This document shows positions 3,126 to 63,500 of a stretch of DNA of 64,000 bases, in pieces. The translations under genes and the position numbers were made by a program. Each line of letters begins with the position of its first letter. Position 1 is the stretch's first letter. The notes below the pieces were generated by a model, which worked only from the letters and a program-made list of their open reading frames with translations, had not been told where the DNA came from and made no database searches. Location: the NCBI GenBank assembly GCA_030737835.1, contig CM060853.1:14507590-14571589 (forward strand), given 5' to 3'. Source of the stretch: Acorus gramineus (Eukaryota > Streptophyta > Magnoliopsida > Acorales > Acoraceae).

Positions 3126-3130
3126 TTGTT

Positions 3131-8989: not shown

Positions 8990-9062
8990 CTCTCGCCTCT
9001 CCTGTAAACAAATTTAATTTGTTGAATTGAAGGTAACGAAGGATGATGGGTTGCGTTAAACC

Positions 9063-10770: not shown

Positions 10771-10910
10771 GGCGGTCGTGGTAGCGGCGGGTGGAGATGA
10801 GGGTGGCAACGGAGGCAGAGAAGGCGTCGGTGAGGGCGATGACGATGTGGTCGGGGTGGGGGCAGGTGGAGATGAAGATGGCAGCATCAAGGGGTGTTTG
10901 TTGGTTGGTG
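10770..10910 (-). pseudogene. Second captured coding-like fragment in the Pack-MULE
   Basis: On the minus strand an open frame reads TPLDAAIFISTCPHPDHIV, then IALTDAFSASVATLISTRR. Nearly every codon ends in C, which is how host exons of GC-rich genes look and not how chance frames look. I do not recognise the source gene. It abuts the ERD7-like piece in the opposite orientation, as in Pack-MULEs assembled from two genes. Confidence 0.45.
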
Positions 10911-11036
10911 GTGTCAAGGGTTTGTTTTTAGGGGAGGGGTGGGTTAGGATCACAAAAACAAAAAAAAAACAAAAAAAAATTATAAGGGCTGGGCTGAGGA
11001 AGTGATGGGGTGGTAATAACTGCCCCCCTCCAATAA

Positions 11037-12410: not shown

Positions 12411-12413
12411 ATA

Positions 12414-12840
12414 AGCCCTTGTTTGGATGGCAGCATAAGTGAGGAATAGAGAGGAATAGAAGATAATAAGACCTAAAAGTTGTTTGTTTGCAAAGAATAA
12501 AGAGGTATATAGTTAAACCAAAATAGATAAAAATAAGCCGGTATTGGTATTCCAGGTCCCTTATATAATTGTGTTATTTCATTCAATCTACTCTGCTCAC
12601 AGGTCACCACCTCTATCAAATCAAGGGACTCACATGTGAAATCAATTTTTCATATTTTATAAATCATTATTTTTATTTCATTCACTTTTTATCCATAACT
12701 TATTTATTATCAACGAAACAATAAAAACTTTATTATTATATTTCTCAGTGACAATAACTAAAAACATAACCAAATCAAAATGATTTATTCTTTATCCATA
12801 CTTAAATAATTACATATACCAGAATAGCTTATGTCACTAG
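12414..12840. mobile_element. MITE (GTTTAGATG-end family) in the GST2 3' flank
   Basis: Begins near ccttgtttggatggcagc and ends near atagcttatgtcac, within about 10 bp of the GST2 stop codon at 12846. Shared internal blocks are ggtattccaggt, gttatttcat, catattttata and ttattcttta. They recur at 17870-18212 and partly at 40370-40770 and 48110-48345. It probably forms the 3' untranslated region of the GST gene. The ends are diverged and no target duplication was fixed. Confidence 0.55.
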
Positions 12841-12845
12841 TTTCT

Positions 12846-14844: not shown

Positions 14845-14928
14845 CTCTCTCAAAAACCTTCTGATGTGTATATATATGAAATTTAAAAGAAACTTTGTGG
14901 TATAGAAAAGGTTATCCTGTGTTACAAC

Positions 14929-14953
14929 AAGTGAGGGAGGTGCTCTATATAGA
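14929..14953 (-). promoter_or_regulatory. Likely core promoter of GST copy 2
   Basis: The minus strand has CTATATAGAGCACCTCCC about 100 bp upstream of the start codon. The adjacent plus-strand block gtgagggaggtg is shared with the first GST promoter at 9065-9076. Confidence 0.55.
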
Positions 14954-15136
14954 CAATATTGGAATGCCATGGAACTTTCTGGAATTCATTTTTTTTTAAT
15001 GTTTTAGGAAAGCTGTGTCAAGTCTTTAAGAGGCATGTTTATTCAATTCAGGATTAAATGTTGATTAAAATGTATTAATTACTTATATCTATTGCACTAG
15101 AGTGGCTTTATTGGACTTGATCACTAATTTTTTATT

Positions 15137-16190
15137 GGGTGAATTGTTCAACTGTCGATTGATCAATGATCTAATTTTTCCTGTCCCTGATTTTTTTTTT
15201 ATTTTCTATTTACTCCTAAAATCTAGTCCATTTTTTTTTGTCTGTGACTTTTCATAATACCCAAACTACCATTTACAGATAGAGTTATAAAAATACATAA
15301 ATATAATGTGATACATACAGAAATTATACACATAGTTACAGATATTTAATAGTTATCTACAAAAAATATTAAAGTACGCAAAGATATTTAAACACAAAAT
15401 GGTCATGTATACATTCTCAGTGTCATTACATTATCATTTGTAAGTACATTCAACGTACACAAAAATTATTATAAATACAATTCCAAAGTTTCATTAAAAT
15501 AAATATATCAATTATTTGAATTACGACGTTTTCTTCATATCTTAATGATCAATTGTTGTCTCCGCTTTAATCCTCTTTATGTCCTCTTGGGTTAAATGAA
15601 GCTCATTGAAAGACCATCGAACTAGACATTCAATGTACTCCATAACGAAGAAGAACCGGCTTTTCAAGCTACATTAAAAATACAACAATCAGTCAAAAAT
15701 CTAAATAAATTTTTATTTAGCAATATAAACAAAATTAGTAATAGCATAAATTCGAACTGAAAATTTATGAACAATTGTAATATTTTAGTAGAAATACTTC
15801 TTGATACGTGTATTTAACAATTACAGAAACTAACATCTTTATAACAAATGCAACAAAAAAAACTACTAATATAATGCCCAATAACGTAATCTACCATTTA
15901 CAGAATAGAAATGTAATATCATATATCATTCTTATAATAATTACAACATAAATTATAAAAATTATAATTTACATAACAGGGTGGAATATCATATATGGAA
16001 ATAAACTAAAGATATATAAATTACAGAAAGATAATGACCAATTACAGAAATGTAATATTAATTTTTAGATGTGAGATATTTTAAATATGAAAAATGAGGT
16101 GGTACAAGAGAAAAAAAATTTATATTTTAAAAATAAATAAATAAATAAATCAATAAATAACCTTGATCATTAGTCATTTGAACAATCCAA
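15137..16190. mobile_element. Possible TIR element carrying an exon-like piece
   Basis: The left end ggtgaattgttcaactgtcg, followed by attgatcaatgatc, resembles the inverse of the right end (gatcattagtcatttgaaca then atccaac). This suggests long degenerate inverted repeats around a 1-kb AT-rich interior with many ttacagaaa motifs. No clean target duplication was found. It contains the coding-like piece at 15542-15668. Confidence 0.4.
15542..15668 (-). pseudogene. Isolated terminal-exon-like fragment
   Basis: After a good splice acceptor (TTTTTAATGTAG) the minus strand reads LKSRFFFVMEYIECLVRWSF, then NELHLTQEDIKRIKAETTID and a stop, in 42 codons. The composition is protein-like and clearly unlike the AT-rich surroundings. 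I do not recognise the family. No upstream exon was found within 1 kb, so it is probably a transposon exon or a captured gene end. Confidence 0.4.
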
Positions 16191-34140: not shown

Positions 34141-37100
34141 ATTGAACGAAGGATCACTAACACGGTCTATCAAGAATATACAGTAAAACTTGATCTAGTC
34201 CCAAGTAAATTAAACTTCTATAATCTAGTTCCATGCATATTCACACATAAAAATAATTTTGTTAACCACCCACAAATTTCGTTCATATAATTATATAAAT
34301 TTTGGGACTTGGGAATGAGGACTATTCTGGATGGGGGGGCCTACATGACTATTCCTGTGAGGGATGAGCAGACTTAAAATTAATTTGTTTTTTTATGTGA
34401 TACAGGAAATGAAACCTTTGAGAAGCTGGGGACCATTGGAACAGCAGCAAACCTATTAGTGTACCTGACCACTGTTTTCAACATGAAAAGGGTGTCTGCA
34501 GCCACTCTCCTCTACGTTTGGAATGGCACCTCAAACATTGCACCTCTAATGGGTGCTTTCATCTCCGACTCCTTTCTCGGTCGCTACAAGACACTAGGAA
34601 TCGCTTGCATAGCTTCATTTATGGTAATCAATTACTTACTCTGTATATCAAAATAAAAAAAAACACATATTGTCAAAATATCTCCCTTCGAACTTTATTA
34701 TTATCAATACCCCTAAAAAAGAATTAAATTGTACATAAACTTTCTTTTGATGGATGCTTATGTGTAATATAAATATTTTAAATTTTACAATTATACTCCC
34801 TACAAGAAAATTCATGCACAATATAAAACACCTTTGAAGATTATTACTGAATATAGAAATTCATCAAAGGTATTTTAACAAATAAATTTTTTTTCTTCTT
34901 AAAAAAAAAAAAACCAAATAAATAAATAATTTTTTAAAGTGTGTGTGTGTGTAGCTAGGTGAAAAACTCTATTTATTTTAACATATATCTTTAAGTTTTT
35001 TTTCAAAAACAAAATTCTCCCATCAACCATTGGATAGCCTTCACTAGCCATATATGAAGAAATTTAAGATACAAATGACTTCATAGTTACAAATATAACT
35101 TGTTTAATTAACATTACAATTTATACTGTATATTTTTTCCGCATCATCAAAGGCCAGCTTGACATTAATTATCATTTTCTCTCTGTTGGAATACTAAAAG
35201 AAATCTTATTTGGAATTCTAGAAAACAATATCTCCTTCCACGGAATTCACCCTAATGAAATTAGTAAACTAAAGTTATCAAACTCGTCCTAAGTAAATGG
35301 TTGGTAACTGGATTATCAATTCCAGGGCATGCTGACCATCATGTTAACATCCGGGATACCAGTGCTGCACCCTCCCCAGTGCGGGAAGGGGGAGGCTTGC
35401 GTCGGCCCGACCGGATGGCAATTCGCCTTCCTGACATGCGGATTAGGTTTCATGGTGGTGGGTGCGGGAGGGATCCGTCCATGCAACCTCGCATTCGGTG
35501 CGGACCAATTCGACCCGAACACCGAGTCCGGTAGGAGGGGCATCAACAGCTTCTTCAACTGGTTCTACTTCACCTTCACGTTTGCGATGATGATATCGGC
35601 CACGCTCATCATCTACGTACAGAGCAACATCAACTGGACATTGGGCCTCGCTATTCCCACCGTCCTCATGTTCTTCTCGTGCTCATGCTTCTTCTTGGGG
35701 TCAAGGATTTATGTTAAGATCAGCCCCAGTGGGAGTCCTTTCTCAAGCATGGCGAAGGTGGTGGTCGCATGTTTTAAGAAGAGGGGACAAAAGCCGCCTG
35801 TGGACCCCAAGATTGAGCTTTTTAACCCGCCCCTGACTGCCAATTCTATCAACTCCAAGCTTCCTTATACTGATCAATTCAGGTACTGCATTTCCCATTG
35901 TCAATAGACTCAATACTCTTGTGCTATTCATTTCGGCTTTTTATAATCTTAAATGTAATCTCATATATCTCTCTTTGAAATTTTTTTACATTTTTTTATA
36001 AATGATGATACTGTTTAATTCATTAGAGTATATATATTTTATATAATGTAAAAGTAATCATTAGATGAGATATATGATTTTAAAATAATTTAAAACATGA
36101 ATGGACTTTGTTTGATACTCGAAGTGAGACATGAATCTAACATTTTTCTTTCTTATAATTCTGTTTTTTTTATAAAAAAAAAAAAGAAAGAAGGAGCTTA
36201 GATAGGATGGGATCCATCCATCCGGTTTCATCATAAATTGTTCACATGTGACAAGAAAGCAAAATGATATGTTCAATCCTTTGTACAACCCCATTTGCAG
36301 GTCACACCTTTATTTTAATTATATATTGCACTCTCTCATTAAAGTATACTGAGATAAAATAAAATATTTATTTTCTTTTTAAAAAAATGAAAAAAAAAAT
36401 TTATCCATACGTTATGATAGAATCTCATACATAATGATAGATAGCTCTATATACACTACGTTATTATAGTTGAAGCTGTAAAATAGATTATAAAACAGAT
36501 TGAGCGTATCAATGCTTGACAAAAAAAATAACACAAACCTCGTATGCATGTTGTCACATATTAGTCTCTAAACAGAAAAGATCTGATGATGGGATCCACT
36601 AATATATTTTTGAAACAAAAAATTCTGAAATCCATGTCAACACTGACATTTCCAATCTTCAATGTATTAATTTTAACATCGCATGATTGTTTTAAAAAGT
36701 TCTCTAAACAACACCAAGTTAATATTGTGGATCATATTATTGTTGCCTCCAGGTTCCTCGACAAGGCAGCAGTCGTAACCATAGAAGACCAGATCAACCC
36801 GGACGGCTCCCCCGCCGACCCCTGGAGACTCTGCAGCCTACAACAAGTCGAAGAGATGAAGTGCCTCTTACGCGTAATACCGGTCTGGTCCTCGAGCATC
36901 CTCTTCTTCATGGCACTCTCCCAACAATTAACCTATTCAGTAATCCAAGCCATCCAATCCGACAGAAAACTCGGCAAGACCGGGTTCCAAATCCCCGCAG
37001 GATCATTCATCGTGTTCTCCATGCTCACCCTCACCGTGTGGATCCCAATCTACGATCAAATCTTCGTCCCCTGGCTACGCAAGGCCACTGGCAAAGAAGG

Positions 37101-37596
37101 CGGCATAACATTACTCCAAAGAATAGGCATTGGGATCGGTCTAACGATCGTTATGTCGATCGTCTCTGCCCTCGTTGAGGAGCGGCGGAGAGCGACATCC
37201 AGAGGGGGAGGCTCTATGTCAAGCTTATGGTTGATTGCTCAATGTGTCCTAGCCGGGCTTGCTGAGGCTTTTAGCATCATTGGGCAGAATGAGTTCTATT
37301 ACAAGCAGTTCCCGGAGAACATGAGGAGCGTCGCGGGCTCATTGTTGTTTTGTGGCATGGCGGCCTCTGATTACCTGAGTGGTTTGCTTATAAATGTGGT
37401 GCATAGGACTACGGGGGGAGCGGGGAGGGACAACTGGTTGGCGGAGGATCTCGACATGGGGAGATTGGATTACTACTACTATTTGGGTGCTTGTTTGGGT
37501 GTCATCAATTTCTTGTATTTCTTGTGTTGTGCGAGGTGGTACAGATACAAAGGTTTTGCTACAGATCATGAAATTGCAGAGATTGTCATGCAATAG
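33131..37596 (+). CDS. NPF: NRT1/PTR family (NPF) transporter, copy 1
   Basis: Proton-coupled membrane carrier of the major facilitator superfamily; members move nitrate, peptides, glucosinolates or hormones. Four exons: 33131-33218, 34406-34623, 35326-35882 and 36753-37596. They sum to 1707 bp, or 568 residues, the usual NPF length. Splice phases 1, 0 and 2 join cleanly (VIG/NETF, SFM/GML, DQFR/FLDK). Visible family features: GNETFEKLGTIGTAANLLVY in helix 1, ISDSFLGRYKT, VVGAGGIRPCNLAFGADQFD, INSFFNWFYFTFTFAMM, FLDKAAV, DPWRLCSLQQVEEMKCLLRV, GLAEAFSIIGQNEFYYKQFP and WYRYKGF. The helix-1 segment has FEKLG where proton-coupling members have ExxE(R/K), as in the NPF2 group. It most resembles NPF2-type proteins; the substrate cannot be told. 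Intron 1 carries a large palindromic insertion. Confidence 0.93.
33420..33811. mobile_element. Large GC-cored inverted repeat in NPF1 intron 1
   Basis: Nested palindrome. The outer arms are gttaatgtaaatttgaaata then tacagtggtgcatat (33487-33521) and the inverse ending caaatttacattaac (33770-33804). Next come TA runs, then gggggcgatggggtgcgcc on the left and its complement on the right, then gtcgac-rich arms made of repeated tcgtcgaccgttcgatcgac units. The centre is a T-run/A-run (33630-33678). A further gcaccactgtaaatatac copy at 33434-33451 extends the symmetry. This is the structure of a foldback MITE inserted in a TA repeat. Sense and antisense transcripts would fold into a very stable hairpin. 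Confidence 0.75.
34101..34137. repeat. AT dinucleotide microsatellite
   Basis: About 18 AT units in intron 1 of the first NPF gene. Confidence 0.9.
36255..36522. mobile_element. MITE, TGATACACTCA-end family, in NPF1 intron 3
   Basis: The right end aaaacagattgagcgtatca matches the inverse of the left ends at 24953 and 32564. The left end has ttcaatcctttgtacaacc then ccatttgcagg. The interior is AT-rich. Confidence 0.5.
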
Positions 37597-38900
37597 ACAT
37601 CTTTTGTGATCAGCATGTTCCCCACCTAGCACTCTTGAGGGGCAGATCTAAAATATGATCATGGATTTTAGAGTTGTCTATGTAGTGTTGCATTACAATA
37701 TTAATATGTAGTATAGGAGAATGGGAAATGGGACAAACCACACATGTTTTTCATATGTAAGCCTTGCAAAGGGAAAAAGTTTTCTATGTCAATCATCAAA
37801 TAGTATATTCTTCATCAGCTTTTATAATTAAAGGGATGTAATTATGGTGGCACGATGAATCGTTGGCATGATTAATTATGGTGGCACGATGAATCATTGG
37901 AAAGCATTTATAATTTCCGAGATGTATTTAATTTACACTACAATGATGAGTAAAAATTATGCAGAGAATGATTCAACTTCCATTAAACTATCACAGTCGA
38001 GTATCACATCCGAAAGTACCATACCGACTTGCTGGCTAGTTTTTCCTTCCCTAAATTGTGCAAATTAATATCTCATAATTGAACAAGCCAAAGAGATACA
38101 ATCAACCCATAGAAAATTTGCCAACCACTCGACTATAGAAGGGCATCATCCAACCGTTATGAGAGGTCCAGGGGTTTGTAACAGCCCCTCGTGGGTCTTT
38201 CAACAAAAAATTAAGATAGAGACAAAAAACATGTTATACCCTCAATTCATTTTCCAGTTTAAAATATAATTTATCTATATTTTATTTAAAAAAATAAAAT
38301 TGTATTCTATTTAATGAGACATGTATTTTATTAAAAATTAAAGTATATACTCCAATGAATTAAATAATATCAATTATAAAAAATATAAAAAACTTTAATG
38401 AGACATATGAAATTGTATTTGACAAAAAAAAAACTGAAAATGTTATGAAAAAAAACAAAAAACATAGATATTTGAAAACCAGCGGCCAAAACCTAATCAA
38501 AGACTTCAAGACCACGTGGAGTGGAAAACCATCGCACCTGTCTCTATGCAGAGTGCAAACACCAAAAAAAAGGGAAAGTCATAACGCAGGGGAGAAGAAG
38601 AGACACCCTGCTTATCTTTCTATTAAAGAGCAACTTGGGGAGAAGAAGAAGACACGCTGCCTTATCTTCCCATTAAAGAGTAACTTCCAATGTTGAGTAC
38701 ACCACCACCCAGTACTGAAGACAAAATTATATAATGCCGACCCACCTCACACTGTGTGATACATATAATGTGACCAATCGCTGACGACAATGGTGATCGT
38801 GACCCCGTTGGACTTGTGCACGCCAACCTCAATTATTTTGGTCTTTCTTTTACTTTCCTTCAGGGTCCCTTGTTGGACTAATATTGGACCGTACTGGGTG
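37597..38900. other. Spacer between the two NPF genes
   Basis: No gene. The first 200 bp probably hold the 3' UTR of NPF copy 1. A short duplication lies at 37841-37895 (attatggtggcacgatgaat twice). 38150-38440 is AT-rich. 38590-38687 carries a 48-50-bp tandem repeat in the upstream region of the second gene (separate entry). Confidence 0.6.
38590..38687. repeat. Tandem repeat in the NPF2 promoter region
   Basis: Two units of 48-50 bp, each with ggggagaagaag, gacac, cttatctt and attaaagag, about 270 bp upstream of the second NPF start codon. Confidence 0.8.
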
Positions 38901-38958: not shown

Positions 38959-41900
38959 ATGGACAAGGAAGCTATTAGTGCAGAGAAAATGAAGAGGAAG
39001 CACAGGGGGTGGAGAGCAATGCCTTATGTGATAGGTAATATATGAAATGGGGAGAATCAATTTAATTTGTTTCATGCATTTGTGGATCTATAATTAATTC
39101 TTTCTTTTTTTTCTATTAATACATGGATCTATATTTCAATTCTATGAATTGTAGTTTGCCAAAACATCCTAAACCATAATATTCAAACACATAATTGAGT
39201 TTTTGTATATAAACAGCCATTGAGTAATTTCCATCATTCTATGTATCCCACTTCCAGATAGAGAGTAGGTAATTAACTTATGGAATTTTTATTTGTAAGT
39301 TCTTATAAATTAATGTTATTCAGTGATCAATCCCTTCTTTCTTTATTTTATTTTTTAAGTCTTCAATTTTAAATGTCTATTTTGTTTTTAGTCCCTACAC
39401 CAAACGTTCGTCTATACACAATTAATTTGTGAAATTGGATTTTTATTTGTAAGTCTGTATAAACTATGTTATTTAGTGATTAATCACTCCTATTTTTATA
39501 TTTTATTTTAAGTCAATAACTTCAAATGTCTTTTTCTTATTAATCTCTGGACAATGTCTATATGATTATGTAAGTATATTGATATTTAAAAATTTTATAC
39601 AAAATGTTTGGTGAAAAACATAAGATAAAATTACATTTGCATTCTTAAGTGTTCAATAACAATTTTAGTGTTATTTAACACAGCATATGCGCACTTAATC
39701 TGATATTGCATTCTCTTAATCTTAACTGTCTAATTGTAATTGATTACATAAGCATAAGAATTTTAAATTAAAAAATTTATATGCTATTAAAAAATTTATT
39801 ATAGGAATGATCACTAAATAATATAATTTACAAAAATCGATCACTAAATAATATAGTTTACAGAGACTTAAAAATAAAAAATTTAAATAGTAATTTAAGA
39901 ATTTCAACTATCTGTTAGCCTAAATAGATGGACGTTTGGTGAATGAACTATTAATGAAATACGTATATAAAATTGGGGATTTAAAAAAAATATGAAAAAG
40001 GAGGGATCAATTAAATAACATATTCACATAGACTTAAAATAAAAATCCCTTAAATTGTTTATTATGCATAATATAAGATTCGCATATAGTAGGACGAGCT
40101 AATCTAATAAATTCAAGAAAACTTTTGGATTCTTTCCCAAGCTTCTTTATTAATTGTTGTCAATTTTTTCCCCTTATTTTCGTGTGATAATGTTTGAACA
40201 AGAACATAGTTGCCAGTTGTCACCCGCCCTTCCCATGAATAAACAATGAAAATTCTAATAGTTAACCCAAGTGTAGCAGCCGAAATATCTTTAAAGTCCA
40301 TAACATTAACTTTTGTGGAAATTTTACCCCTCTTGTAATAGCCCATAAAATAAGTGAAAATAAAATAAAATATGTGTTTTTTTGTTGTTTAGATGCAAGA
40401 AATACCCTAATATAACCTATATATATATCAAAATAAACTGGTATATAGATTCCAACCAATCATTAGAATTAAAATTATTTCAAGGTTATTCTAATCAAAG
40501 AATGTGTGAGTCACCTGTCAAATCAACTATCATCATCTGTTATAAATCATCTATTAAATCAACTATCATCATTTTTCACCTTTTATGAATCCTTATTCAC
40601 ACTTTATTCACATTTTATCTAAATAACAAAAAAATTATTATTACATTTTTCAACGAGAATAATTTAAAACACAATTAAACACAAAATCACTTTATCCTTA
40701 TTTATACCCATTTATGTTGGAATAACTGTATATAAAAAAATAAGTCATATTTTACATCTAAACAGGTGATGGTCAATTGCAAGCTTTTATTTTACAATTT
40801 TTGTTATCAGGACCGGCGTGTGTAAGTTGATTATGTATTTCCTAAAGCATGTATATATTTCATAAAATTATGTGTATATAAACATTGTATATGCCAATGA
40901 CGGTACATGTGGCTTGTTGTGTTTTTTTACATCACTTTTCTTAAACTTTTTAGGATGTGATGTGTCTGAATTCTAATTTTAATATCAGTTTCTCAACTTT
41001 AATCTAAAAGAATAATTTTTCATTCACATAAATTCATTCCCTGGAAAAAAAAATTTATCTATAATTTTAAAAGAAAAAAAATACAAAAATGAAATATTTA
41101 AAACGCCATTTTTCATAGTGTTCCACCAAATAAATACGAGAAAGAATGTCACACTCAATTCTTAATTTCGTCTTACAAATTACAATAGATTCCAACTATC
41201 ATTTCACAGTCTAACATAAATGAATGCCACGACGAATATAAATGATATTGAACAGTCTTGAATTGATTTAATTGTCTCTATGTGACACATGCAGGGAATG
41301 AAACCTTTGAGAAACTGGGGACCATTGGAACATCCGCTAACCTGTTAGTGTACCTGACCACCGTGTTCAACATGAGCCGAGTCTCTGCAGCTAATCTGCT
41401 TTACATCTGGCGTGGCACCACCGACATAGCACCTTTATTGGGTGCCTTTATCTCCGACTCCTTTTTAGGCCGCTACAAGACGGTTGGAATTGGTTGCATT
41501 GCTTCACTTGTGGTAATCAAATTGTTGTCACTTTCTATTTTATTTTATACATTGTCAGTTCTCTTTTTACTTGTAGAAATGATAGATGTGAAATAAGATA
41601 AATATGAGTAAATAAACTTAAAAAATATATATTTGTTTGAAGGAAATAAATATGTATACTTATGCTAGAATATATAAAATATGTTTCCATATCAAATCAC
41701 GTATTATCAGATCTTGTAAATAAAAAAAGATAATTAAAGTGTAAAAAATCATTTCAACCTTCATCATAACTAAATAAGTCTATGTGAACGGATCAAATAC
41801 GAATCTTATACCTTAATATTCATATTCTATCCTAACTATTCATATACAAATATATGAAAAAAATTAAAATTGAGCATTTAAAGTTTTTCCGATACAAATA

Positions 41901-44104
41901 GTTATTCATGAAGGATAATTGAACTTAAACAATATATAATATAAATATAAACAATCTAAAATATATGTTATATTCATATATTTTTTAGAGTGCATGTTGA
42001 AATATATATCTACACTTCCGTATAGTCAAATACTGGGCATTAATATAATCTGATTTTCCATGTATATTTTTGTTGCATAATATACAGGCTTAATCATAAC
42101 ATAGAACACTTGGATTTGCATAAACACGCACCAAATTATCCTCCTACCTCTAACATTCACAAAAAAATAATGTGATTTAATTTTCATGAATCAAATTAAT
42201 GGTTTCTTGACACATGATTTGCAATTGGTTTCCAGGGTTTGTTCACTATCATGCTAACATCAGGTATTCCAAAGCTGCACCCCCCACAATGCGCGAATGG
42301 GGGGACCTGCATTGGCCCAAATGGGTGGCAACTAGGCTTCCTGTTATGCGGATTGGGGTTCATGGTTGTCGGGGCCGGAGGGATCCGTCCATGCAACCTC
42401 GCATTCGGCGCGGACCAATTCGACCCGAACACCGAATCTGGGAGGAGGGGCATCAACAGCTTCTTCAACTGGTACTACTTCACCTTCACGTTTGCGATGA
42501 TGATATCGTTCACGCTCATAATATACGTCCAGAGCGACGTCAACTGGACTCTGGGTCTAGCCATCCCAACAGTTCTCATGTTCTTTTCGTGCGCGTGCTT
42601 CTTCGTCGGATCGAGGATTTATGTGAAGGTTAGGCCTGAGGGAAGCCCTTTTACAAGCATGGCAAGAGTGTTTGTCGCCGCAGTTAGGAAACGGGGAGTG
42701 AAGGTGCCGGAGGATCCCAGAAATGAGCTTTTTAACCCACCTCAGCCTGCTGGTTCCATCAACTCTAGGCTCCTCTACACTAACCAATTCAGGTACAATG
42801 TTTGGGACTTACATTATATAGTTCTTCCTTTGCCTCTTGATTTTGCTAGAAATTCAGTTGATTTGCATAGATAGAACAAGCTTTTTTTCACCCACAACAT
42901 CATCCTATCAGTGCATATATAGCAAGAACCCAGATCATTAAATAGTGTCAAACATGGTTGAATAAAGGTTTGAGGGGGATTGTCTGGTTCTGGAGGAGTA
43001 ACATTAGCACCACGGCGCACCAGGTGGTCTCTCGTCCACTGGGTCTTTCTTGGGAGCGCCTCTAATTTGGGGGCCTCTTGTTCACTCATCATGACTACGT
43101 TTCTAAAGAAAATGCATTAGATATTGGTCGAATAAATGAATGATTATGGCCATTTGACATCTTCACACAAATAATGGATCATCTAGGCTAAAGTGATCAT
43201 GCTTTCTTTATCAAGGTTCCTCGACAAGGCGGCGGTCATGACAGCCGAAGACGAGCTCAACCCGGACGGCTCACCGACCGACCCCTGGAGACTCTGCAGC
43301 CAACAACGTGTGGAAGAGATGAAGTGTCTCATTCGAGTGATCCCAGTTTGGTCCACAAGCATCATGTTCTTCATGGCCCTCGCACAACAGTCAACCTATT
43401 CAGTATTCCAAGCCCTCCAATCCGACAGGCACCTCGGTCGAACCGGCTTCCAGATCCCCGCCGCCTCATTCATGGTCTTCAGCATGCTCACACTCACCCT
43501 GTGGATCCCAATCTACGATCGAATCGTTGTCCCGTGCCTAACAAAACTCACAGGCAAAGAAGGCGGCCTAACTCTGCTCCAGAGGATGGGCATTGGCATC
43601 GTCCTCTCGATCGCGATGTCGATCTCTTGCGCGCTAATAGAGACTCAGAGGAGGAAGTACTACTACTCGAGAAGAGGGCATGGGCATGGCATGCCAAGTC
43701 TGTGGCTTGTCGTGCCGTGCCTTCTGGCTGGGCTTGCTGAGGCTTTTAACATCATTGGGCAGAATGAGTTTTACTACAAGCAGTTCCCGGAGAACATGAG
43801 GAGTGTCGCAGGGTCTCTGATGTTCTGTGGGATGGGGGCTTCTTATTACCTGAGTAGTTTGCTAGTGTCGATCGTTCATAAGACAACGGGGGGAGGCGGG
43901 AGGCGTAATTGGCTGGCGGAGGATCTGAATGAGGGGAGATTGGATTGGTACTACTACTTGGGTGCGGGTATGGGTGTGGTCAATTTCTTGTATTTCCTCT
44001 GCTGCGCGAGGTGGTATCGGTACAAAGGCATCTCCCCCTCCCTTGAAGCGGCGGAGATCGCCTTGGAAGAAAAAGAGAAGATCATCAAAGTACAAATGGT
44101 TTGA
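38959..44104 (+). CDS. NPF: NRT1/PTR family (NPF) transporter, copy 2
   Basis: Tandem duplicate of the preceding NPF gene with the same four-exon plan and identical splice phases: 38959-39034, 41295-41512, 42236-42792 and 43216-44104. The total is 1740 bp, or 579 residues. Exons 2 and 3 are exactly as long as in copy 1 (218 and 557 bp). Motifs in order: MKRKHRGWRAMPYVIG, GNETFEKLGTIGTSANLLVY, FISDSFLGRYKT, GAGGIRPCNLAFGADQFDPN, FNWYYFTFTFAMM, FLDKAAVMTAEDELNPDGSP, IPIYDRIVVP, LTGKEGGLTLLQRMGIG, AEAFNIIGQNEFYYKQFPEN and ARWYRYKG. The C-terminus is longer than in copy 1 (EIALEEKEKIIKVQMV), and a Tyr/Arg-rich loop (RKYYYSRRGHGHG) differs between the copies. It is NPF2-like; the substrate is unknown. 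Intron 1 holds a foldback MITE. Confidence 0.93.
39282..40049. mobile_element. Foldback MITE, copy 2, in NPF2 intron 1
   Basis: 768 bp. The left end GGAATTTTTATTTGTAAGTT and the inverted right end GGGATTTTTATTTTAAGTCT open long arms. Each arm consists of two head-to-tail units (left near 39282 and 39437; right, inverted, near 39820 and 39960) with gttatttagtgat, caatccct, aaatgtct and ccaaacgt words. The flanks ttaacttat (39273-39281) and ttaaattgt (40050-40058) match at 7 of 9 bases, suggesting a 9-bp Mutator-like target duplication. The core matches copy 1 at 2071-2950 in opposite orientation. Confidence 0.78.
40370..40770. mobile_element. MITE (GTTTAGATG-end family) in NPF2 intron 1
   Basis: The left end ttgttgtttagatgcaag and the right end ttttacatctaaacagg are inverted repeats. 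Internal blocks ttattcacattttatct, tattattacatttttcaa and actttatccttatttatacc match the copies at 12414 and 17870. Confidence 0.65.
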
Positions 44105-44357
44105 GTGCTATTACAAGTGTGCCTGCAATTCTCGTTGTAAAAGATATCTTTCTAAAGCACAAAAGGTTTGGGTGCTTTCCACTCGATTGTTTAGAAACAA
44201 GAGTGGTTTTTTCTTTTGCATATATAGTTGGAAGAGCATCGTTACACCCTCATATGAACGAGGTGTATATCTGCTTTCAAAAAAATTCACATTAGATCCA
44301 TGTAATTCTTGGATTATATATTCCATGTTTTATAAAAGCATATACAATTGAGACTAA

Positions 44358-46660: not shown

Positions 46661-47556
46661 TCAATTGACACTGGTAAGCGCACTGGTAAGAGTACTAGTA
46701 AGGGTGAAACATGCAGCAGCACTCTTGAGTTCATTTTCAGCAACATTGTCCTTCTCCTCGGCCAATATCGGGTTCTTCAATGATGAATCGTCAGAACTGC
46801 CATTCAGAAGAAAAAAAACATTCACTAATAATGATCATAACAATATTATGCCAATAAAACCATAAACTAAAATTCATATGAAGACCTTGATTGATAAGCA
46901 TCCTTCGAATCCATGGTGTCGAAAAATGGTGAGATCTCGTCGTACTCATGAGTGGGGGGCATGATTTGTTCATGTAGCTTCTGTTGTTCGCAACTGAAAG
47001 ACTGAGCAGGCGCGGAGACGCCACAATGTGTTTGTGTTTGTGTTTGCATTTCTGGCGTCACGGTGTTTCCATTATACAAATGTTGTAGCCACATGGTTTG
47101 GTCGTTGTGCTCGTCACCTGTAACTTGTGCATTTGAATTAAACAGAACATTATCATTGAAAAGCGGGAGAGCGGCCACAGCTTCAGCATTGTGACAGTGC
47201 AGCTGCTGCTGCTGTCTGATATGCTCGAGCTGATTGTTGACTAAGTTACACTCATACTGAACTTGCTGAATCTGGAATTGGAGCGTCATGATGATGCCTA
47301 GACAACCGTAGACCGGGTACTTGTCCCTGATGTTAGACTCGTAGATAATGGAGCGCATCGCCTCGGACTTCTGAGAGGGATCAATCCTGTTAAGAATCTT
47401 CAATATGTTGCTAACTCCGAAGAGCTTGTGTGCGTTTTGGAATTGCTTTGGATTGTCAGGTGGAAAATAAGGCGCGAGTGGGCACGTCGCCGAGCACTTC
47501 CTCCTCTGATACTTGCAAGCTGCACATGCTTGGCTTGTCCCTCCCTTCACCGTCAT
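46661..47556 (-). CDS. LBD: LOB-domain transcription factor, LBD27/LBD22-like
   Basis: Plant-specific DNA-binding regulator of organ boundaries or, for the LBD27 type, pollen development. Exon 1 is 46886-47556 (223 codons plus 2 bases); the 89-bp intron is 46797-46885 (AAG/GTCTTC to GGCAG); exon 2 is 46661-46796. The product is 268 residues. The LOB zinc-binding block is C-X2-C-X6-C-X3-C at C11, C14, C21 and C25 (CAACKYQRRKCSATC), then the GAS block FGVSNILKILNRID and PVYGCLGIIMTLQFQIQQVQ as the coiled-coil-like segment. The middle is Gln-rich. The opening MTVKGGTSQACAACKYQRRK resembles LBD27. Exon 2 supplies a conserved-looking end, AENELKSAAACFTLTSTLTS, closing ALTSVN. Reading exon 1 through the intron gives a false stop at 46867. 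The TLTS repeat looks like a local tandem expansion. Confidence 0.88.
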
Positions 47557-47609
47557 AAAAGTTGTATCTGATCTGGGTTTTTTTTTTTTTTTTCTATGGT
47601 GAGAATGAT

Positions 47610-47626
47610 AAGATTAATATATAGTG
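47610..47626 (-). promoter_or_regulatory. TATA-like box of the LBD gene
   Basis: The minus strand reads CACTATATATTAATC about 60 bp upstream of the start codon, with a T/A tract between them. Confidence 0.45.
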
Positions 47627-51044: not shown

Positions 51045-51356
51045 TTGAAAACTTTTTCTCTCTCAATAACAATTCGTCTATTTATTTTATCACTTTACAA
51101 CTTGTGTGTTAATACTCGTAATATCAAAAATCAAAATGGTAGTACTAAAGTCTCTCCATAGCCACCTTGAGGCAATGAGATTGAGCAGAGGAATACAATT
51201 GAGACTATGTTGAAACATTTTAATTAACTCCCTAACCACCTTGAGTTATTTATTGTGTTTTTTCACCTTTTGTTTTTGTCCATTTGCTTCGAGATTGTGG
51301 GATTTATTTCTTCGTTTATGGCTGAATTAATTAGTGGTGAATGTAAATGGTAAAGG

Positions 51357-51494
51357 TCTCCAACAGCTTGGGTCATGTGATAAGGGGCATTCTCTCTTCA
51401 GAGGAATGCCCAGGTTCAAACCTTGCTGATGCTGGTTACCATGGGCTTTGACCTACAAGATGTCTAGATCTTTGTATAAAAAAAAAATTAAATC
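51357..51494 (+). mobile_element. tRNA-derived SINE
   Basis: 138 bp. It has cttgggtcatgtgataaggg, resembling box A, then cccaggttcaaacctt as box B about 40 bp later, a short body ending tctttgtat, and an A-rich tail. The 12-bp flanks aaatggtaaagg (51345-51356) and aaatgataaagg (51495-51506) are a target duplication with one mismatch. The matching point in duplication unit 2 (near 55097-55106) has a single undisturbed copy, so the SINE came after the duplication. Confidence 0.85.
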
Positions 51495-52286
51495 AAATGA
51501 TAAAGGGGTAATTTCATGGAGATCAAAGAGACATCTATCTCCAGAATGGCCTCTTGTATACTGCTTCCTCAAATCTGATGGCCAGATTGTCATCATGTTA
51601 GACGAAACAGGGGACACCTTTTTTTTCTTTCAATGCTGACTTTTCTGTAGAGATGCTCAAGTATGGTTCATGTATTCAGTGTCACTTTGTTGTATTGCCT
51701 GAAATTAATGTGTTATGCAATTTCTAGCTTTCTGTGCTTGGAGGGGATGCAACCTAGCAGCTGGACTGCTTAGGCTTCCCTCCCTCTAGAAACAACTTGC
51801 CATATCTTGTGAGTTTCATTGAAGATAGACATTTGGACTTTTGATTGGGTGAAATTCATTTACTTACCAAAGAAAAGGTTCATGCGAAAAACAATTCTAA
51901 ATAACTGCCCATCAATAAATACCCTTTTTTTTTTTTTAATTGATACAAACCAATTTGTTTATTATCATTTAAAACGTTTAGAACTGTCATTGATACCTCA
52001 TCAGTGGATAGAATTCATTGTGTTCCACACTCTTATAATGATGACAGCAGCCCAACATCCAGGTGCTTGTACTTCAATTTAAATCCAAAAATCTCTCTTG
52101 AACACGTCCCTTGCAAACTCGTTAACGGTGCGTAAGTGAAAGAGAACTGATTCTCATTGAATTCCAGCAAATAAAGGCAAAAAAATTACTGTTTAAAAGG
52201 GGTCCAAAAAAGGAACCCAAATGTTCCACGGCGTTTTGTCGGCTGTTACACTTTACATATAGCTTGTTAGCCATCTGCACTCACTG

Positions 52287-53114
52287 TAGGCCTGTCAACG
52301 GGTCGGGTCCGGGTCGGGTCAGGGTGGACCCGGACCCGACCCGTGACAGGACCCGGCGGGTCTGGGTCCAACCCAGGACCCGGTGGGTCCGGAGAAATGT
52401 GGACCCGGACCCGGACCCGTCGGACCCGGGTCGGGTCCGGGTCCGACCCGACCCGGATGGTTGGGTAAAAAAAAAAAAAAAAAGAGAGAAGAGCTCATGT
52501 ATTTGTTTGTCTTATCATTCTATTTGAAATTTTTTGTAATAAAACATTATTGTTAATGAGACTATGTTTGAATATAATTTTATACAATTCAAAAGAAGTA
52601 AATGAATTATTAAACAACATCCAAAACAATAATCACTAACATAAAAAACATATTAACCTAAATAATAAACATAACTAACATAAACAACATTCAAAACAAT
52701 AAACACTAACATATTAACCTAAATAATAAACATAAATCATGCAACAAACTAATTAATCATCCAAATTCAAATGCTAATAAATTAATTGTCCAAAACAAAC
52801 CGATTTATAGGCTTGTTATGATTATGATTTATGAACTTGTACATACAAAAATAAGTTAAGTAAGAAATAAAATTATGTATCAACTAATACTAATGGTCTT
52901 ATAATATATGAATATATATTAAAAAAAACAGTCGGGTCCAACGGGTCCAACGGGTCGGGGCGGGGTGGACCCGGACCCGACCCGTTTGTTTGTTCGGGTC
53001 CGCCGGGTCGGGTCCAACTCGGGTCGGGTTCAAATCGGATCGGGTATATTACACGTGTAATCAGATCCGGGTCGGATCAGGTCCGGGTCTGGACCCGACC
53101 CGTTGACAGGCCTA
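52287..53114. mobile_element. hAT MITE with GGGTCGG-rich subterminal arrays
   Basis: 828 bp. The perfect ends TAGGCCTGTCAACGGGTCGG at left and CCCGTTGACAGGCCTA at right are flanked by the exact 8-bp duplication ACTCACTG (52279-52286 and 53115-53122). Both ends carry arrays of gggtccgggtcgggtc and their complements; the 400-bp centre is AT-rich. Non-coding. It is inserted about 290 bp upstream of Trx copy 1 and is absent from copy 2. Confidence 0.92.
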
Positions 53115-53322
53115 ACTCACTGTAACGATTTATATACCTTGTTAAAAAAAAATTTATACAATCTATATAATTCATTAGAATATATATTCATCTTTTTAAA
53201 AAACATATATCTCATTAAACGAGATATATTATTTTAAAAAAAATAAAGAAGGATATGTACTGTATTTGGGACAAGAATTGAGGCTATGCATGGCATTTTC
53301 CTTGCCTTTTACATTGTGAACG

Positions 53323-53334
53323 GGCTATATAAGA
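53323..53334 (+). promoter_or_regulatory. TATA box of Trx h copy 1
   Basis: ggctatataagaaatcctcc lies about 75 bp upstream of the start codon. Copy 2 has ccctatataagcaatcctcc in the same place. Confidence 0.65.
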
Positions 53335-53405
53335 AATCCTCCCTCACCCCCAAGAACTCCATCAAAACATTTCTTATATATACGACTTCACAAACAAACA
53401 CTAAA

Positions 53406-53982
53406 ATGGGTTCAGGATACTCATCCTACCAAAACCATGGCAGCTCATTCTTTGCCTCCCCAGAAGTTGTTCCATCTGCGCCGTCGACAATTCTCACGTT
53501 CCACTCTAAGACTGCTTGGAAGGCACACTGGGAGACAAATAAAAACTCCACAAAACTTGTGAGTAAATCAGCACCTCTTTCAGACACAATATCTCAAAAT
53601 ATATGGAATAATTATAAGTATTTGATTTCTTTTACTAGATGGTGATGAACTTCACTGCTTCATGGTGTGGTCCTTGCCGGACCATTGAGCCTACAATCAA
53701 AGCATTGGCGGCCAAATTTACAGACGTCATATTCGTGAAGATCGATGTCGATGAGCTCATGGTATATATTCATATTCATGATGATGATCTAGTTTAAGGT
53801 TTTAATGGGTTGTTTATATTAATGTTTTTTTTTTTTTTTCATTTCATTAGTCTGTGTCGGAGGAGTGGAAGGTGCAAACAATGCCGACGTTTGTGCTGGT
53901 GAAGAAAGGAATGGAGGTTGATAAGGTTGTGGGAGCCAAAAAGGATGAACTTGAAAGGAAGATTGAGAGGCAGAGGTTCTAG
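53406..53982 (+). CDS. TRXH: Thioredoxin h, subgroup II-like, copy 1
   Basis: Small dithiol reductase of the cytosol or membranes. Exons 53406-53558, 53639-53761 and 53851-53982 (phase-0 introns of 80 and 89 bp) encode 135 residues. The active site is WCGPCR (Cys61, Cys64) in [18 protein letters not shown]. The conserved cis-proline lies in [11 protein letters not shown], and the end [16 protein letters not shown] is typical of Trx h. The N-terminal extension of about 20 residues starts [10 protein letters not shown]. Gly2 with Ser6 fits the N-myristoylation consensus, as in Arabidopsis TRX h2-type proteins, so membrane attachment is likely but inferred. Introns sit at the usual Trx h places. 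It differs from copy 2 at Asn45 (Tyr) and Ile82 (Val). Confidence 0.94.
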
Positions 53983-55268
53983 ATTCAAGAACCATAACCA
54001 ATATAATAACATGCATGCAACATTGGTTCTCCAGCGTGCTAGCAATATCTACCTTCTTCTTCTTGTTTCTTTCTTTCTCACCCAGCCCACTTCGGAATTG
54101 TACTACGATTTCAGAAATGAAAGCGCCATAGCAATGTTTATCTTCTTTTTAATAAATATATAAATAAGCATTGGTTCTTTAGCCTTTACATGTGTGACTT
54201 GCTTCTTTTTCTTAATTCTTTCTCACTCTTTTCTTCATTTCTTTTGATTTTTTTTTTCTGGGCTGTGTCTTTATGCTTGTAATGCAATGGCTGCTCTATG
54301 CCTAAGAAAGTAGAAGATCCCAAGCGTGGATTTATAATAATAAAGATTCATTTAATAATGAATGGAATTAAATTTTTTATTATTTAAATGTGTGTTCCTC
54401 CAAAATATGTTTTTGACCAAACAGGGTATGTTTGAAATTTCAGAACATAATTTTCCAACATCTGGTGGAATAATATAATGCATAATTTTTGTGGATATAC
54501 AACAATAGTGCATATATACTTCGTTTAGATAAATTTTAAAGTTCGTTTAAAATAGCACTCCTTTCATATACAAGAACACTGGTTATATAAATTTTGTGCA
54601 TGGTCATTATGTGACCAATACAGAAACTGCATGGTTTTTATAACTTATAAAGTAAATCACTTTTTAACCGCATTATGGTCGACCCTCGTCTTTCTCACTC
54701 CAATCTAGCATGTGTTTTTCTGTTTCCATCCCTCTTTCTAGCCTGATCTGTATTTCTCTATTGATAACATATTGTGTATTAATTCTTTTAATCACCCTAC
54801 AACTTCTGTTTTATTCATAATATCAAAAGTCAAAACGGGGCTAGCTACGCGAGGACTTTAAATTTCCTAATTAACCACCTAAAACTATTGAGACTGAACA
54901 GAAGAGCAGAATTCGGACCAAGTTATGACAATGGTGGGAGATCATTTTGTTCATGGTGGGTTCAAACGACCCTCACTACCATGTGTCAGTCAACATGAAA
55001 CATGACATGCCTTAACAATTGTACCTGCTTCAGACTAACACATGGTTTTTACCATGTTAAAAACCATGAAACAAACACTCATGGCCAATGGTTAAATAAT
55101 GGTAAAGTGGGTACTTTCATGGGATCAAAGTGCTTTCATGAGATCAAAGGGACTCTTCTAGACTTCTATCATACAATGGATCTTCTAAATCAGCTAAAGG
55201 AACAGACGGTTTTGAACATCCAGAAAATCCAAAATGGGCTTTCTATCTTGTCTCCTCATATTGAAAAA

Positions 55269-55521
55269 TGTTACACTCTATCTATTTTATAATACAAAAC
55301 ACAGACAGAACATGTTTTCATTTTTAAAAAAAATTACATACCTCATCTAATGAGGTATATACTTTTATAAATGTGTGAAGAACATACTCTAATGAATTAG
55401 ATTTTATCATTTACAGAAAATGTGAAAAATTTCCGACGAATTATATATCTCAATACAATTAATAGAAGGCTAATGAGGTATATAAGATTGTGATCAAGCT
55501 TTAAAAGGACTGAGTGTAACA
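55269..55521. mobile_element. MITE, TGATACACTCA-end family, in unit 2
   Basis: 253 bp from TGTTACACTCTATCTATTTT to the inverted end GACTGAGTGTAACA. The same region of duplication unit 1 (near 51560-51590) runs through without it, so its borders are supported by an empty site. Related ends occur near 11445, 11820, 24953, 32564 and 36522. Confidence 0.75.
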
Positions 55522-56373
55522 GAGCTTCCTGATACTTTGTGACCATTATGTTAGACACAACAGGGGACAAAATTTAAAAGAGGGGCAAATGACTAAGAGC
55601 TGAACTCTGTTTTTTTAGTTCTTACCCTTCTGTGGAGATGCTCAAGTGTGGTTCATGCATTCAGTGTCATTTTGTTGTATGGCCTCAAACGAATGTGTTT
55701 CACATGATCTAGGTTATTGTGCTAGACTGACGCTTCCTCTCTCTAAGAACAACTAGCTATATCTTGTGAGTTTCTTTGAAGATTGACTCTGTACAGCTGT
55801 GTATTTTGGGCTTTTGATTGAATGAAAGTCATTTACTTACCCAAAAACAGAAAGAGTCAATGCCACAAACCACAAAGTTCACATATATTTACAAGTTTCC
55901 GGTTCTAATATTTACAAGCTTGTTTAGATATGAAATTCTAAGTACCCATACATCAATAAATACTAATACATATATTTGGTTTTTTATTCGAATTCGAGAA
56001 TGAAATCGGATAGCAAACATCTACCAATTTTCAAAAAATAAATACCAATAACTTTTTTTAATCTCAATTGATACAAAACCAATTTGTTTATTTATCATTT
56101 AAAACGTTATGATGAACTGTTACTGATACCCCATCAGTGGAGAGAATTCAATGTGTTCCACTTTTTTATCCAGTTGCATGTACTTCAAATCCAAATCTCT
56201 CTAGAAAATCGTGTTTGCAAACTCAACGGTGAGACATACGTGAAAGAGAACTTGTTCTCCTGGAACCTCCTCCACCAACTAAAGGCAAAAACATTTCTTA
56301 AAGGTGTCCAAAAAATTAAGACACCCAAATGTTCCAAGGTGCATGTTTGTTTTTTACATAGTGAACTAGCTAC

Positions 56374-56385
56374 CCTATATAAGCA
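56374..56385 (+). promoter_or_regulatory. TATA box of Trx h copy 2
   Basis: ccctatataagcaatcctcc lies about 75 bp upstream of the start codon, equivalent to the copy 1 box. Confidence 0.65.
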
Positions 56386-56456
56386 ATCCTCCTCCACCCC
56401 AAGAACTCCATTAAACCATATCATCCCATACAACTTCACAAACCACAAAAAACAAA

Positions 56457-57031
56457 ATGGGTTCAGGATACTCATCCTACCAAAACCATGGCAGCTCATT
56501 CTTTGCCTCCCCAGAAGTTGTTCCATCTGCGCCGTCGACAATTCTCACGTTCCACTCTAAGACTGCTTGGAAGGCACACTGGGAGACCTATAAAAACTCC
56601 ACAAAACTTGTGAGTAAATCAACATCTCTTTCAGACACACTCTCTCAAAATATATGGAATAATTATAAGTATTTGATTTCTTTTACTAGATGGTGATGAA
56701 CTTCACTGCTTCATGGTGTGGTCCTTGCCGGACCATTGAGCCTACAATCAAAGCATTGGCGGCCAAATTTACAGACGTCGTATTCGTGAAGATCGATGTC
56801 GATGAGCTCATGGTATATATTCATATTCATGATGATGATCTAGTTTAAGGTTTTAATGGGTTGTTTATATTAATGTTTTTTTTTTTTTCATTTCATTAGT
56901 CTGTGTCGGAGGAGTGGAAGGTGCAAACAATGCCGACGTTTGTGCTGGTGAAGAAAGGAATGGAGGTTGATAAGGTTGTGGGAGCCAAAAAGGATGAACT
57001 TGAAAGGAAGATTGAGAGGCAGAGGTTCTAG
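56457..57031 (+). CDS. TRXH: Thioredoxin h, subgroup II-like, copy 2
   Basis: Exons 56457-56609, 56690-56812 and 56900-57031 encode 135 residues with the same WCGPCR active site and the same potentially myristoylated start [10 protein letters not shown]. Only two residues differ from copy 1 (Tyr45, Val82). The introns are also nearly identical to those of copy 1. In contrast, the sequence just upstream of the ATG and from about 50 bases past the first untranslated stretch differs noticeably. It is intact and probably active, with a promoter that has evolved separately from that of copy 1. Confidence 0.94.
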
Positions 57032-57883
57032 ATTCAAGAACCATAACCAATATAATAACATGCATGCAACATTGGTTCTCCAGCGTGCTAGCAATATCTA
57101 CCTTCTTCTTCTTGTTTCTTTCTAACCCACTTTGGAATTGTACTACAATTTTTATAGATGAAAGCGCGATAGCAATGTTTACTTTCTTTTCAATAAATGA
57201 ATAAAAAAAGCATTGGTTCTTTAGCCTTTACATGTGTGGCTAGCTACTTTTTCTTCTTTCTCACTCTTTTCTTCATTTCTTTTGATTTTTTTTTTCTGGG
57301 CTATGTCTGTATGTTTGTAATCCAATGGCTGCTCAATGCCTAAATTGCATTAAGAAGTTGAGATCCCAAGCGTAGATTTTATAATAATAAAGGATAATAT
57401 AATAATGAATGGAATTAAATTTTTACTATTTAAATGTGTATACCTCCAAAAATATATTTTTGAACATACGTATACTTGCAAAATTTATTACTTTACCCAT
57501 ATCACAATTATAAAAAAGTGTAATTTTTTATAAAGATTTTTATAAATATTTAATGAATGCAAATAAATAAAACAAACACATTACACATCACATATTATAT
57601 CGATTATAATAATATCTAAATCAATCTATAAAATAAAAATTGAATTCAAAAACATAAAATAACAGAGTTTTATAGTTATAAACGGTGAGTAAAAAAAAAA
57701 AGAAGGAAGCTATTTATTTTAGAAATGATATAGATAGTAATTTAATTAATTTGTAAATGATAGAATAATAATTTAATTTAAGATTCAGTGAAATTTGAGT
57801 TTACCACAAAAAAGAATGAGAATTTTATTCCATCACATTATTTCACATGTCTTTATTTTAATTTCAATGAGGCTACAATTACT

Positions 57884-60555: not shown

Positions 60556-63500
60556 TCGGCTGATCGGGTCCCCTCAGCGGAGTTTAGCGGGGACCGAGCG
60601 TGCGAGAAGGCGGCGAAGCTGGGATTGAAATTCCAGGAACGTAAGGATAAAAAGAAATTCATCACTTTTTTAAGAAGAGGCTTGGGACCTTTCCCCTTAG
60701 CTCTTTTTGTAAGAAGCAGTGACGTAAGGGGTTTTTTTGTCTGTTAATTATGTTGAAAGCCTTATGTTGGAATGTCCGTGGTCTTCATGATCGTAGAAAG
60801 AAGGAGGCGGTTCGAAGCTTTGTTTTGGAGCACCAAATTGATTTGTGTTGCCTTCAGGAAACCAAGTCGTCTGTGATTTCTCCTGACACTCTTCGGGCAA
60901 TTGGAGGCGGTAGGTTGGACGACTTTCGTTTCTTGCCCTCAGAGGGTGCGTCCGACGGTATAGGAATTGGATGGAATTCCAGTAGATGGAGGTGTTTGGA
61001 GGACCGCATTGGAGAGTTCTTGGTGTCAATCAAGCTGGAAGACTCTGTTACTGGATGGTCATGGGGTTGCTCTGGGGTTTATGGCCCCTTAGATGGTTCC
61101 CATCGTGAAAGGTTATGGGCAGAACTGAGTGTTACCAAAGCTGTGTGGGCTATTCCATGGTGCTTTATGGGTGACTTTAACGTCACTAGGTGGGTGGAAG
61201 ATAGAAACCGGCCGGGTGGCGCTACTCCCGACATGAGGCTATTCTCATAATGGATTGGTAATGAGGGTCTTATTGATCTCCCTCTACTTACTTAGTCTTT
61301 CACCTGGAGCAGCCTTCGGGAGTTCCCGTCTTTGGCCCGGCTTGATAGGATCCTAATTGATAACGACTGGGAAGAGGCTTTCCTGTCATGTTCTATCACT
61401 TTTCTCCCGCGAGTCATCTCAGACCACTGTCCGCTCATGCTAGTTGGAGATTTGCCGACATTGGGTAGGTCCCAGGTCCGTTTTGAATCCTGGTGGTTAC
61501 GTGTTGAGGGATTCCGAGAGGTTGTCTCTTCTTCATGGACTCTTCCGATGAAGGGGGTCTTTGGGGGGTTACGTGTTGAGGGATTCCGGGAGGTTGTCTC
61601 TTCTTCATGGACTCTTCCGATGGAGGGGTCTCTGGGCCCAAGAGGGTGGCTCTTAAGTTGAAACGACTTAAGCACACTCTCAAAGTTTGGGGTCGTGAAG
61701 CCAAGAGGAGGCGGCGTGAACGTAAGTCTGTTCTCGAGTTTGACAGTTATATGCTTGATGCTCTTGAAGAATGTGGTTTATTAGGGGAGGAAGATCGTGA
61801 GAGGAGGAATTCCCTTAAGTTGGCCATGCAGAATATCTTCGGTATGGAGGAAGAAGAGTGGCGCCTGCGGTCCAGAGCCACTTGGCTCAAAGAAGGAGAT
61901 TCCAACACAGCATACTTCCATAAGGTGGCAAATCATCGAAGGCGGGCTAACCGGATCGATTCATTACTAATAGGGGAATCTCGGACTTCATCGGTTAGAG
62001 CTATTCAAGAGGCTTTCGTGTCACATTTTCAGGAGATGTTTAAGGCCCCTAGAGGGGAGAAGGTGGCATGGCATGATGATGGGCTGGCTATCTTGTCAGA
62101 GTAGTGGAAAATGAAGATCGAATGTCCTTTCTCTAAAAGGGAGATTCGCCAGGCGATCTTCGACACAGAGGGCGATAAAGCCCCACGCCTGGACTGGTTT
62201 AGTACCCGGTTCTATAAAGAGTTTTGGGAAATCGTGAAGCAAGATATATTGCAAATGTTCGAGGAATTTCATGCAGGACTTTCTGGTGTTGGATGCTTGA
62301 ATGCTATGTTCCTCACTCTCATTCCGAAGAAGTCGGGAGCGGAGGAAATTTCAGATTTCAGGCCTATTAGCCTGATAAATGCAAGCTACAAAATGGAATC
62401 CAAGGTTCTCGCCAATCGCTTAAAGGAGGTGATCAGTTTCTGGTGGAATCCAATCAAACAGCTTTTGTTCCGGGTCGTGCACTGTAGGAAGGCTTCTTGG
62501 CGGTACAGGATGCTATATCTGGGGTTCATCGTCTTCATTGGAAAGGAACACTTATCAAGCTGGACTTCCTTAAAGCATATGACCAAGTGGACTGGTCATT
62601 TCTCAGACACCTTATGGTCTCTCATGGCTTTGGGGACCGATGGGTACGAATGATTTTTTACTGTCAGCTTCAGTCCTTGTCAACAGCACCCCTTGCGGCT
62701 TCTTCCCCATTCATCGTGGGCTTCGGCAGGGGGACCCTTTATCCCCTTTTCTCTTTATCATAGTTACAAATGTGCTAAGTCGAATGATACACAGAGCTGA
62801 GATTGATGGCTGGGTTCAAGGAGTGCGATGCGGAAGGTCAAACTTCACCCTCTCCCATGTTCTTTATGTTGATGATACTATGCTTCTTTGTGAAGGAGAG
62901 AAGCGTTTTGTAGAGGGCATCATGTTTGTGGTCTCGGTCTTTTGTTGGCTATCAGGGCTAGTTATTAACAGGAGAAAAAGTGTTTTCTTTGGCATTAACA
63001 TAGAAGAGGAGGAACTGCACTCTATGGTTGACCAGTTCTCATGTCCCGTGTGGTCATTCCCAGCTAGATATTTGAGGCTGCCCCTGAGTTTACGTGCTCT
63101 CTCTCTTGTGGATTGGGATCCGCTAGTGCGCAGATTCGACCAACATCTTGCGGGCTGGGCGGGAAGATTGCTAAGCTTGGGGGGTCGTCTCGTTCTCCTT
63201 CAAGCAGTTCTATCTAATCTCCCGGTTTTTCTATTATCCTTGTTTAAAATTCCAAAAACTATCCTGCATCGCATTGATGTGCTAAGAAGACGGTTTCTTT
63301 GGAGCGGGGTGAGTCTGGGCCCTCGTCGTGTGCATTTAGTTTGATGGGAATCAGTGTGCACAAGTAAAAATATGGGTGGTCTAGGCGTGATTGATCTGGA
63401 AGACTTTAATAGAGCTTTGTTGGCCAAGTGGGTGTGGAAATTTTTGAGTGATAGGCATGCGGTATGGAGAAGAGTGGTTTCAGGTGGTCTCCAAGGTAGG

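Follow-up and report, generated by a model that had tools for sequence, protein, structure and literature searches.

The 64,000-nucleotide stretch of Acorus gramineus DNA analysed here (the window), part of the 24.7-Mb contig C7 in a genome of 398.6 Mb and 137 contigs, carries two thioredoxin h (Trx h) genes in direct tandem on the forward strand. Copy A (53406-53982; exons 53406-53558, 53639-53761 and 53851-53982) and copy B (56457-57031; exons 56457-56609, 56690-56812 and 56900-57031) each have three exons and a reading frame whose 135-amino-acid translation contains a WCGPC motif. Exon borders were inferred from the sequence, and the terms 3'-side and presumed 5' UTR denote positions rather than mapped RNA. 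The copy A protein matches Pfam PF00085 (E 1e-25), and its best solved chain is Thioredoxin H (6x0b, E 5.1e-42) in an alignment that begins at residue 1. The pair has the thioredoxin domain with WC[G/P]PC that defines plant h-type thioredoxins, and its MGS start and three exons are further likenesses to those members with an N-terminal extension; we presume that it belongs to h-type group II, an assignment based on the 6x0b match and not on a tree. Proteins with an MGS start can undergo N-myristoylation. The two coding sequences differ at 3 of 408 sites, one synonymous and two changing an amino acid (N45Y and I82V). In a genome search with all four candidates scored, the closest other relatives are a tandem pair on contig C9 with 74-82% DNA identity, and more distant thioredoxins are present elsewhere in the genome.

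Other features of the window, where a Pfam domain search covered 10 of the 44 long frames listed, include pieces of glutathione S-transferase genes at 7350-14849 (by Pfam, GST_N at 8621-9013 and GST_C at 7355-7720), each with a related stretch further along. A LOB-domain gene occupies 46870-47613 on the minus strand, LINE-like remains are found in pieces at 60723-63341 as endonuclease/phosphatase-family and reverse-transcriptase frames, and a DUF4371 fragment lies at 4563-5186. The DUF4371 domain occurs in hAT-type transposases.

Both Trx h genes lie within a larger duplicated unit on the forward strand, whose limits, drawn from alignment and BLAST, are approximate: 51045-54440 for copy A, with clear homology from about 51560, and 54743-57487 for copy B. 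BLAST pieces of the copy A unit fall at 51055-51139, 51625-51877, 51914-52231 and 53307-54422. The copies were compared by aligning 51045-54480 with 54700-57540, and the part from 51045 to 51560, where the alignment is near noise in many windows, was excluded from tests. The copies differ at 17 of 94 sites in the proximal 5' flank, 53 of 285 in the 5' block 51914-52231, 52 of 238 in the 5' block 51625-51890 and 36 of 312 in the 3' flank (54075-54400). These rates rest on gapped alignments, and three gap settings left the flank counts unchanged (5' 21/101; 3' 52/352 if extended to 54440). The 3' flank has diverged less than the two nearest 5' blocks pooled (36/312 against 70/379, p 0.014), with no clear difference from the proximal 5' block alone (p 0.12), and an older, wider layer of conversion is one possible reading of this lower divergence.

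The flanks contain different transposons, from which the earlier note concluded that the duplication is old, an argument that holds for one element and fails for the other. The upstream flank of copy A only carries a non-autonomous element of 828 bases (52287-53114) with an 8-bp target duplication, ACTCACTG, and TAGGCCTGTCAACGG at both ends, limits to which frames shifted by 1 and 2 bases also fit. We take it to be hAT-like, since matching ends and an 8-base target duplication are typical of hAT elements; its GGGTC/GACCC ends are G+C-rich and its middle A+T-rich. Among the matches listed (40 of 1,812 first-look candidates scored), its nearest other copies are 97-98% identical and at least 39 other long copies are 94-98% identical, so that a recent burst of the element in the A. 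gramineus genome is probable. Identity of 97-98% to the nearest listed copies indicates a late insertion, and the element was therefore rejected as a sign of an old duplication. A MITE-like element in the upstream flank of copy B (55262-55525) is diverged, at about 77% identity to its nearest full-length copies among the matches listed and up to 81% over part. Flank divergence together with this diverged element is better evidence for an old duplication than the hAT-like element.

Within this unit the two genes fall in a near-identical tract on the forward strand, 53403-54074 in copy A aligned with 56454-57123 in copy B, where 7 of 670 aligned sites differ. The earlier note had described genes and introns that differ at few positions, with the match ending just upstream of the ATG and divergence resuming near 54070/57120, and all of this is borne out. 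Intron 1 differs at 4 of 80 sites, intron 2 at 0 of 87 with a 2-base indel in a T run, and the 92 bases 3' of the stop codon at 0 of 92. The final 5' mismatch, at 53402, is four bases upstream of the ATG, while a 9-base indel follows directly after 54074, with a mismatch at 54085. Identity across the aligned unit is uneven (7/670 in the tract against 36/312, 17/94 and 53/285 in the flanks), and a penalised segmentation covering 1,400 aligned sites does best with three segments, whose boundaries fall at 53402/53403 and 54084/54085 (BIC 749.1, against 840.4 for one segment). Both edges are sharp and lie inside the homologous block, homology extending beyond them on either side, as gene conversion leaves them. 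Mismatches and indels precede the ATG, and a polypyrimidine stretch with the 9-base indel lies at the 3' end; the edges fall where homology turns poor, a possible reason for the tract to end at these points.

Over 53307-54400 the longest mismatch-free run spans 344 aligned sites with gap columns ignored, a length reached in 0 of 20,000 shuffles, whose largest run was 223; the shuffle ignores selection on exons, which the silent-site test below takes into account. Among 20 self-matches of at least 150 bases in the window, unbroken identity extends furthest in the Trx h pair (248, with gaps counted as breaks), the runner-up, a local tandem repeat, reaching 109. Two POT-family transporter genes in tandem at 34300-37700 and 41200-44200, whose matched pieces are 77-82% alike, were used as an unconverted control, and their longest identical run is 34 bases.

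At neutral-type sites the tract differs at 1 of 63 four-fold positions, 4 of 167 intron positions and 0 of 92 positions after the stop, in sum 5 of 322, and the comparison is significant both with the 3' flank (Fisher p 1.4e-7) and with the proximal 5' flank (p 3.0e-8). The earlier note had held that equal silent-site divergence in genes and flanks would speak against conversion, and the two are plainly unequal. Silent and non-coding sites carry an excess of identity over homologous flanks that is characteristic of gene conversion, and this process, or an equivalent recombination, is well supported by silent and intron divergence far below that of both flanks. Synonymous divergence between copies A and B is 0.011, and between the C7 and C9 genes 0.56-0.73. 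Set against the latter, the flank divergence on C7 suggests that the tandem duplication there postdates the C7-C9 split, the tract being far younger still.

A correction to the earlier note is that the near-identity is not uniform through the tract. A patch at 53537-53591 on the forward strand, in which 6 of 55 sites differ, holds six of the seven tract differences, and all five neutral-type differences sit there (0 of 285 outside it). It separates a first identical segment (53403-53536, forward strand, 0/134) from a second, near-identical one (53592-54074, forward strand, 1/481, at 53729). The patch rate is close to that of the 3' flank, and 24 of 200,000 random placements were equally tight. 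Polarised against the C9 genes as outgroups, copy A carries the derived state at 53571 and 53589 and copy B at 53538, a polarity that is clear for only three of the six sites and less certain at 53589 than at 53538, since intron sites hang on a loose alignment to C9. At 53537 and 53591 the two outgroups, p1 and p2, conflict with each other, and at 53574 the outgroup state matches neither copy. Derived changes in both copies make the patch resemble the old divergence of two lineages and, as far as three clear sites of six allow, disfavour a single burst of mutation as its origin. A five-segment fit that includes the patch is slightly worse than the three-segment fit (BIC 752.5 against 749.1), so that the BIC does not demand two tracts and the island rests chiefly on the clustering and polarity tests. 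On these, the patch is a probable unconverted island, with old divergence preserved between a converted segment on either side.

The tandem Trx h genes of contig C9 (L007 and L008, in 2112500-2132300; 2676-3386 and 14665-15466 in reversed positions) provide a yardstick. One of the two is missing 69 bases of exon 1 without loss of frame, and upstream segments of the cluster are present in several repeated copies. The pair has a dS of 0.114 and a dN of 0.091, with differences at 18 of 114 sites in exon 1, 9 of 123 in exon 2 and 6 of 132 in exon 3, and at 10 of 86 in intron 1, 24 of 254 in intron 2 and 38 of 295 in the 5' flank, so that its introns have diverged nearly as much as its flank. It is a mosaic, 161 of 1356 sites differing before a break and 33 of 1032 after it (BIC 1303.7 for one break, 1304.8 for three segments and 1353.6 for no break). 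The break lies inside exon 3 (p1 position 3284) and not at the ATG, which partly accounts for the low divergence of that exon. Recombination between tandem copies may recur in the Trx h family.

Our results, built on one genome, make it very probable that the C7 tract reflects a recent interlocus (ectopic) gene conversion, possibly discontinuous, within an old tandem Trx h duplication. In this account a Trx h gene was duplicated in tandem long ago, and the flanks of the resulting copies went on to diverge by about 11-22%. At a much later date, about 0.67 kb of one copy, running from around the ATG to a point about 92 bases beyond the stop codon, would have been written over the other by recombinational repair between these neighbours, which lie about 3 kb from each other on the same chromosome. 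The tract appears discontinuous, a 55-base island comprising the end of exon 1 and part of intron 1 having kept the older difference, and this could represent either two events or a single patchily repaired heteroduplex. Non-reciprocal transfer is what we infer, as are its direction, how many events took place and any advantage gained, and the tract comparison gave no site informative for direction. A third gene as donor of tract or patch was rejected, genome searches having listed only copies A and B, the C9 pair at 74-82% and the more distant thioredoxins.

Unequal crossing-over could have left the same pattern. If A and B crossed over, on either sister or homologous chromosomes, a three-copy array would result, from which a second crossover or a deletion would drop one copy; tandem direct copies permit this, and the C9 cluster has several repeated upstream units. 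However, such a history requires at least two events with both breakpoints near the gene, where conversion takes fewer steps, and the outer flanks of both copies all retain their own diverged sequence, so that we regard it as improbable. An artefact of assembly or polishing, in which reads of one copy wrote or corrected the other, has to be weighed because the evidence is assembled sequence and mis-polishing can yield a near-identical stretch within diverged sequence. It appears very unlikely, as the tract retains seven substitutions and the T-run indel, each copy is embedded in separate diverged flanks on a single 24.7-Mb contig, and a pre-conversion divergence of about 10% would, we presume, usually keep reads apart. 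Purifying selection alone might be invoked to hold the genes alike, as the protein is a conserved thioredoxin, but protein-level selection cannot explain near-identity where 0 of 285 four-fold, intron and 3'-side positions differ outside the patch, and another pair of the family, that on C9, varies freely in introns and at many coding sites, which leaves this account barely credible. Equally implausible is a merely apparent flank divergence, arising from uneven mutation rate or from misalignment of AT-rich flanks with indels and transposons, since flank counts were constant under three gap settings and a stretch with 0 of 343 sites differing, set directly beside 36/312, is a sharper step than a gradient in rate would give.

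Conversion limited to the transcribed gene, which the earlier note proposed would keep the proteins alike while the promoters drift, fares less well than conversion itself, which stands. Confinement rests on one positional coincidence. The true 5' edge can be placed no more closely than between 53402 and the earliest exon 1 difference to have been erased; the tract excludes the presumed 5' UTR, and its 3' end lies about 92 bases past the stop. Random placement of two edges in the homologous block puts one of them no more than 20 bp from the ATG in 6.8% of trials and, when the stop and the assumed transcription start are counted too, no more than 20 bases from any of these in 20%. Edges can be compared with gene boundaries in two pairs only: C7 has one edge at the ATG and one about 92 bases past the stop, and the C9 break is in exon 3. 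These two pairs do not support a start-codon rule for conversion edges, though they are too small a sample to exclude it, and the sharp edge at the C7 ATG may well be coincidental. We think it unlikely that selection sets the 5' edge, with conversions that reach into the promoters removed because these have separate roles, and with repeated conversion of the gene body keeping the proteins interchangeable; the lower 3' flank divergence and the patch would then be traces of earlier rounds.

Read as recent gene conversion, the Trx h pair provides a clean, checkable case between two plant redox genes. Dating by the coding dS of 0.011 would make the duplication about ten times too young relative to its flanks, which are 11-22% different. 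Should the edge at the start codon turn out to recur from species to species, this would inform the question of how duplicates retain a single protein while using two promoters. A literature search combining thioredoxin h, gene conversion and tandem duplication returned nothing on these genes and only work on SRLK genes; it covered open-licence papers, so this absence says little.

Interlocus gene conversion and the concerted evolution of duplicates are described generally for worm, fly and yeast (PMC3966223, PMC3924832, PMC2728529), and low synonymous divergence need not imply a young duplication. The Trx h case shares with the conversion described there a stretch of near-identity within an older duplication that crosses exons and introns, and no feature tested here sets it apart. 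A closer parallel is Arabidopsis halleri, where three tandem HMA4 genes are reported to undergo ectopic gene conversion, with coding sequences 99-99.3% identical and promoter segments that behave as separate loci (PMC3749932). Support for this conversion comes from population data, from network-like genealogies and from a selective sweep, and the genes have a known dosage role; conversion was also observed beyond the coding sequence and, in a single individual, involving two promoters (PMC3749932). The Trx h pair is like HMA4 in consisting of tandem plant paralogues with homogenised coding sequences and distinct promoters, and differs in that HMA4 has three genes and population data, whereas the Trx h case comprises two genes in one genome, known from sequence alone. 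The kind of process is well known, ectopic conversion with concerted coding sequences and separate promoters having been published for HMA4.
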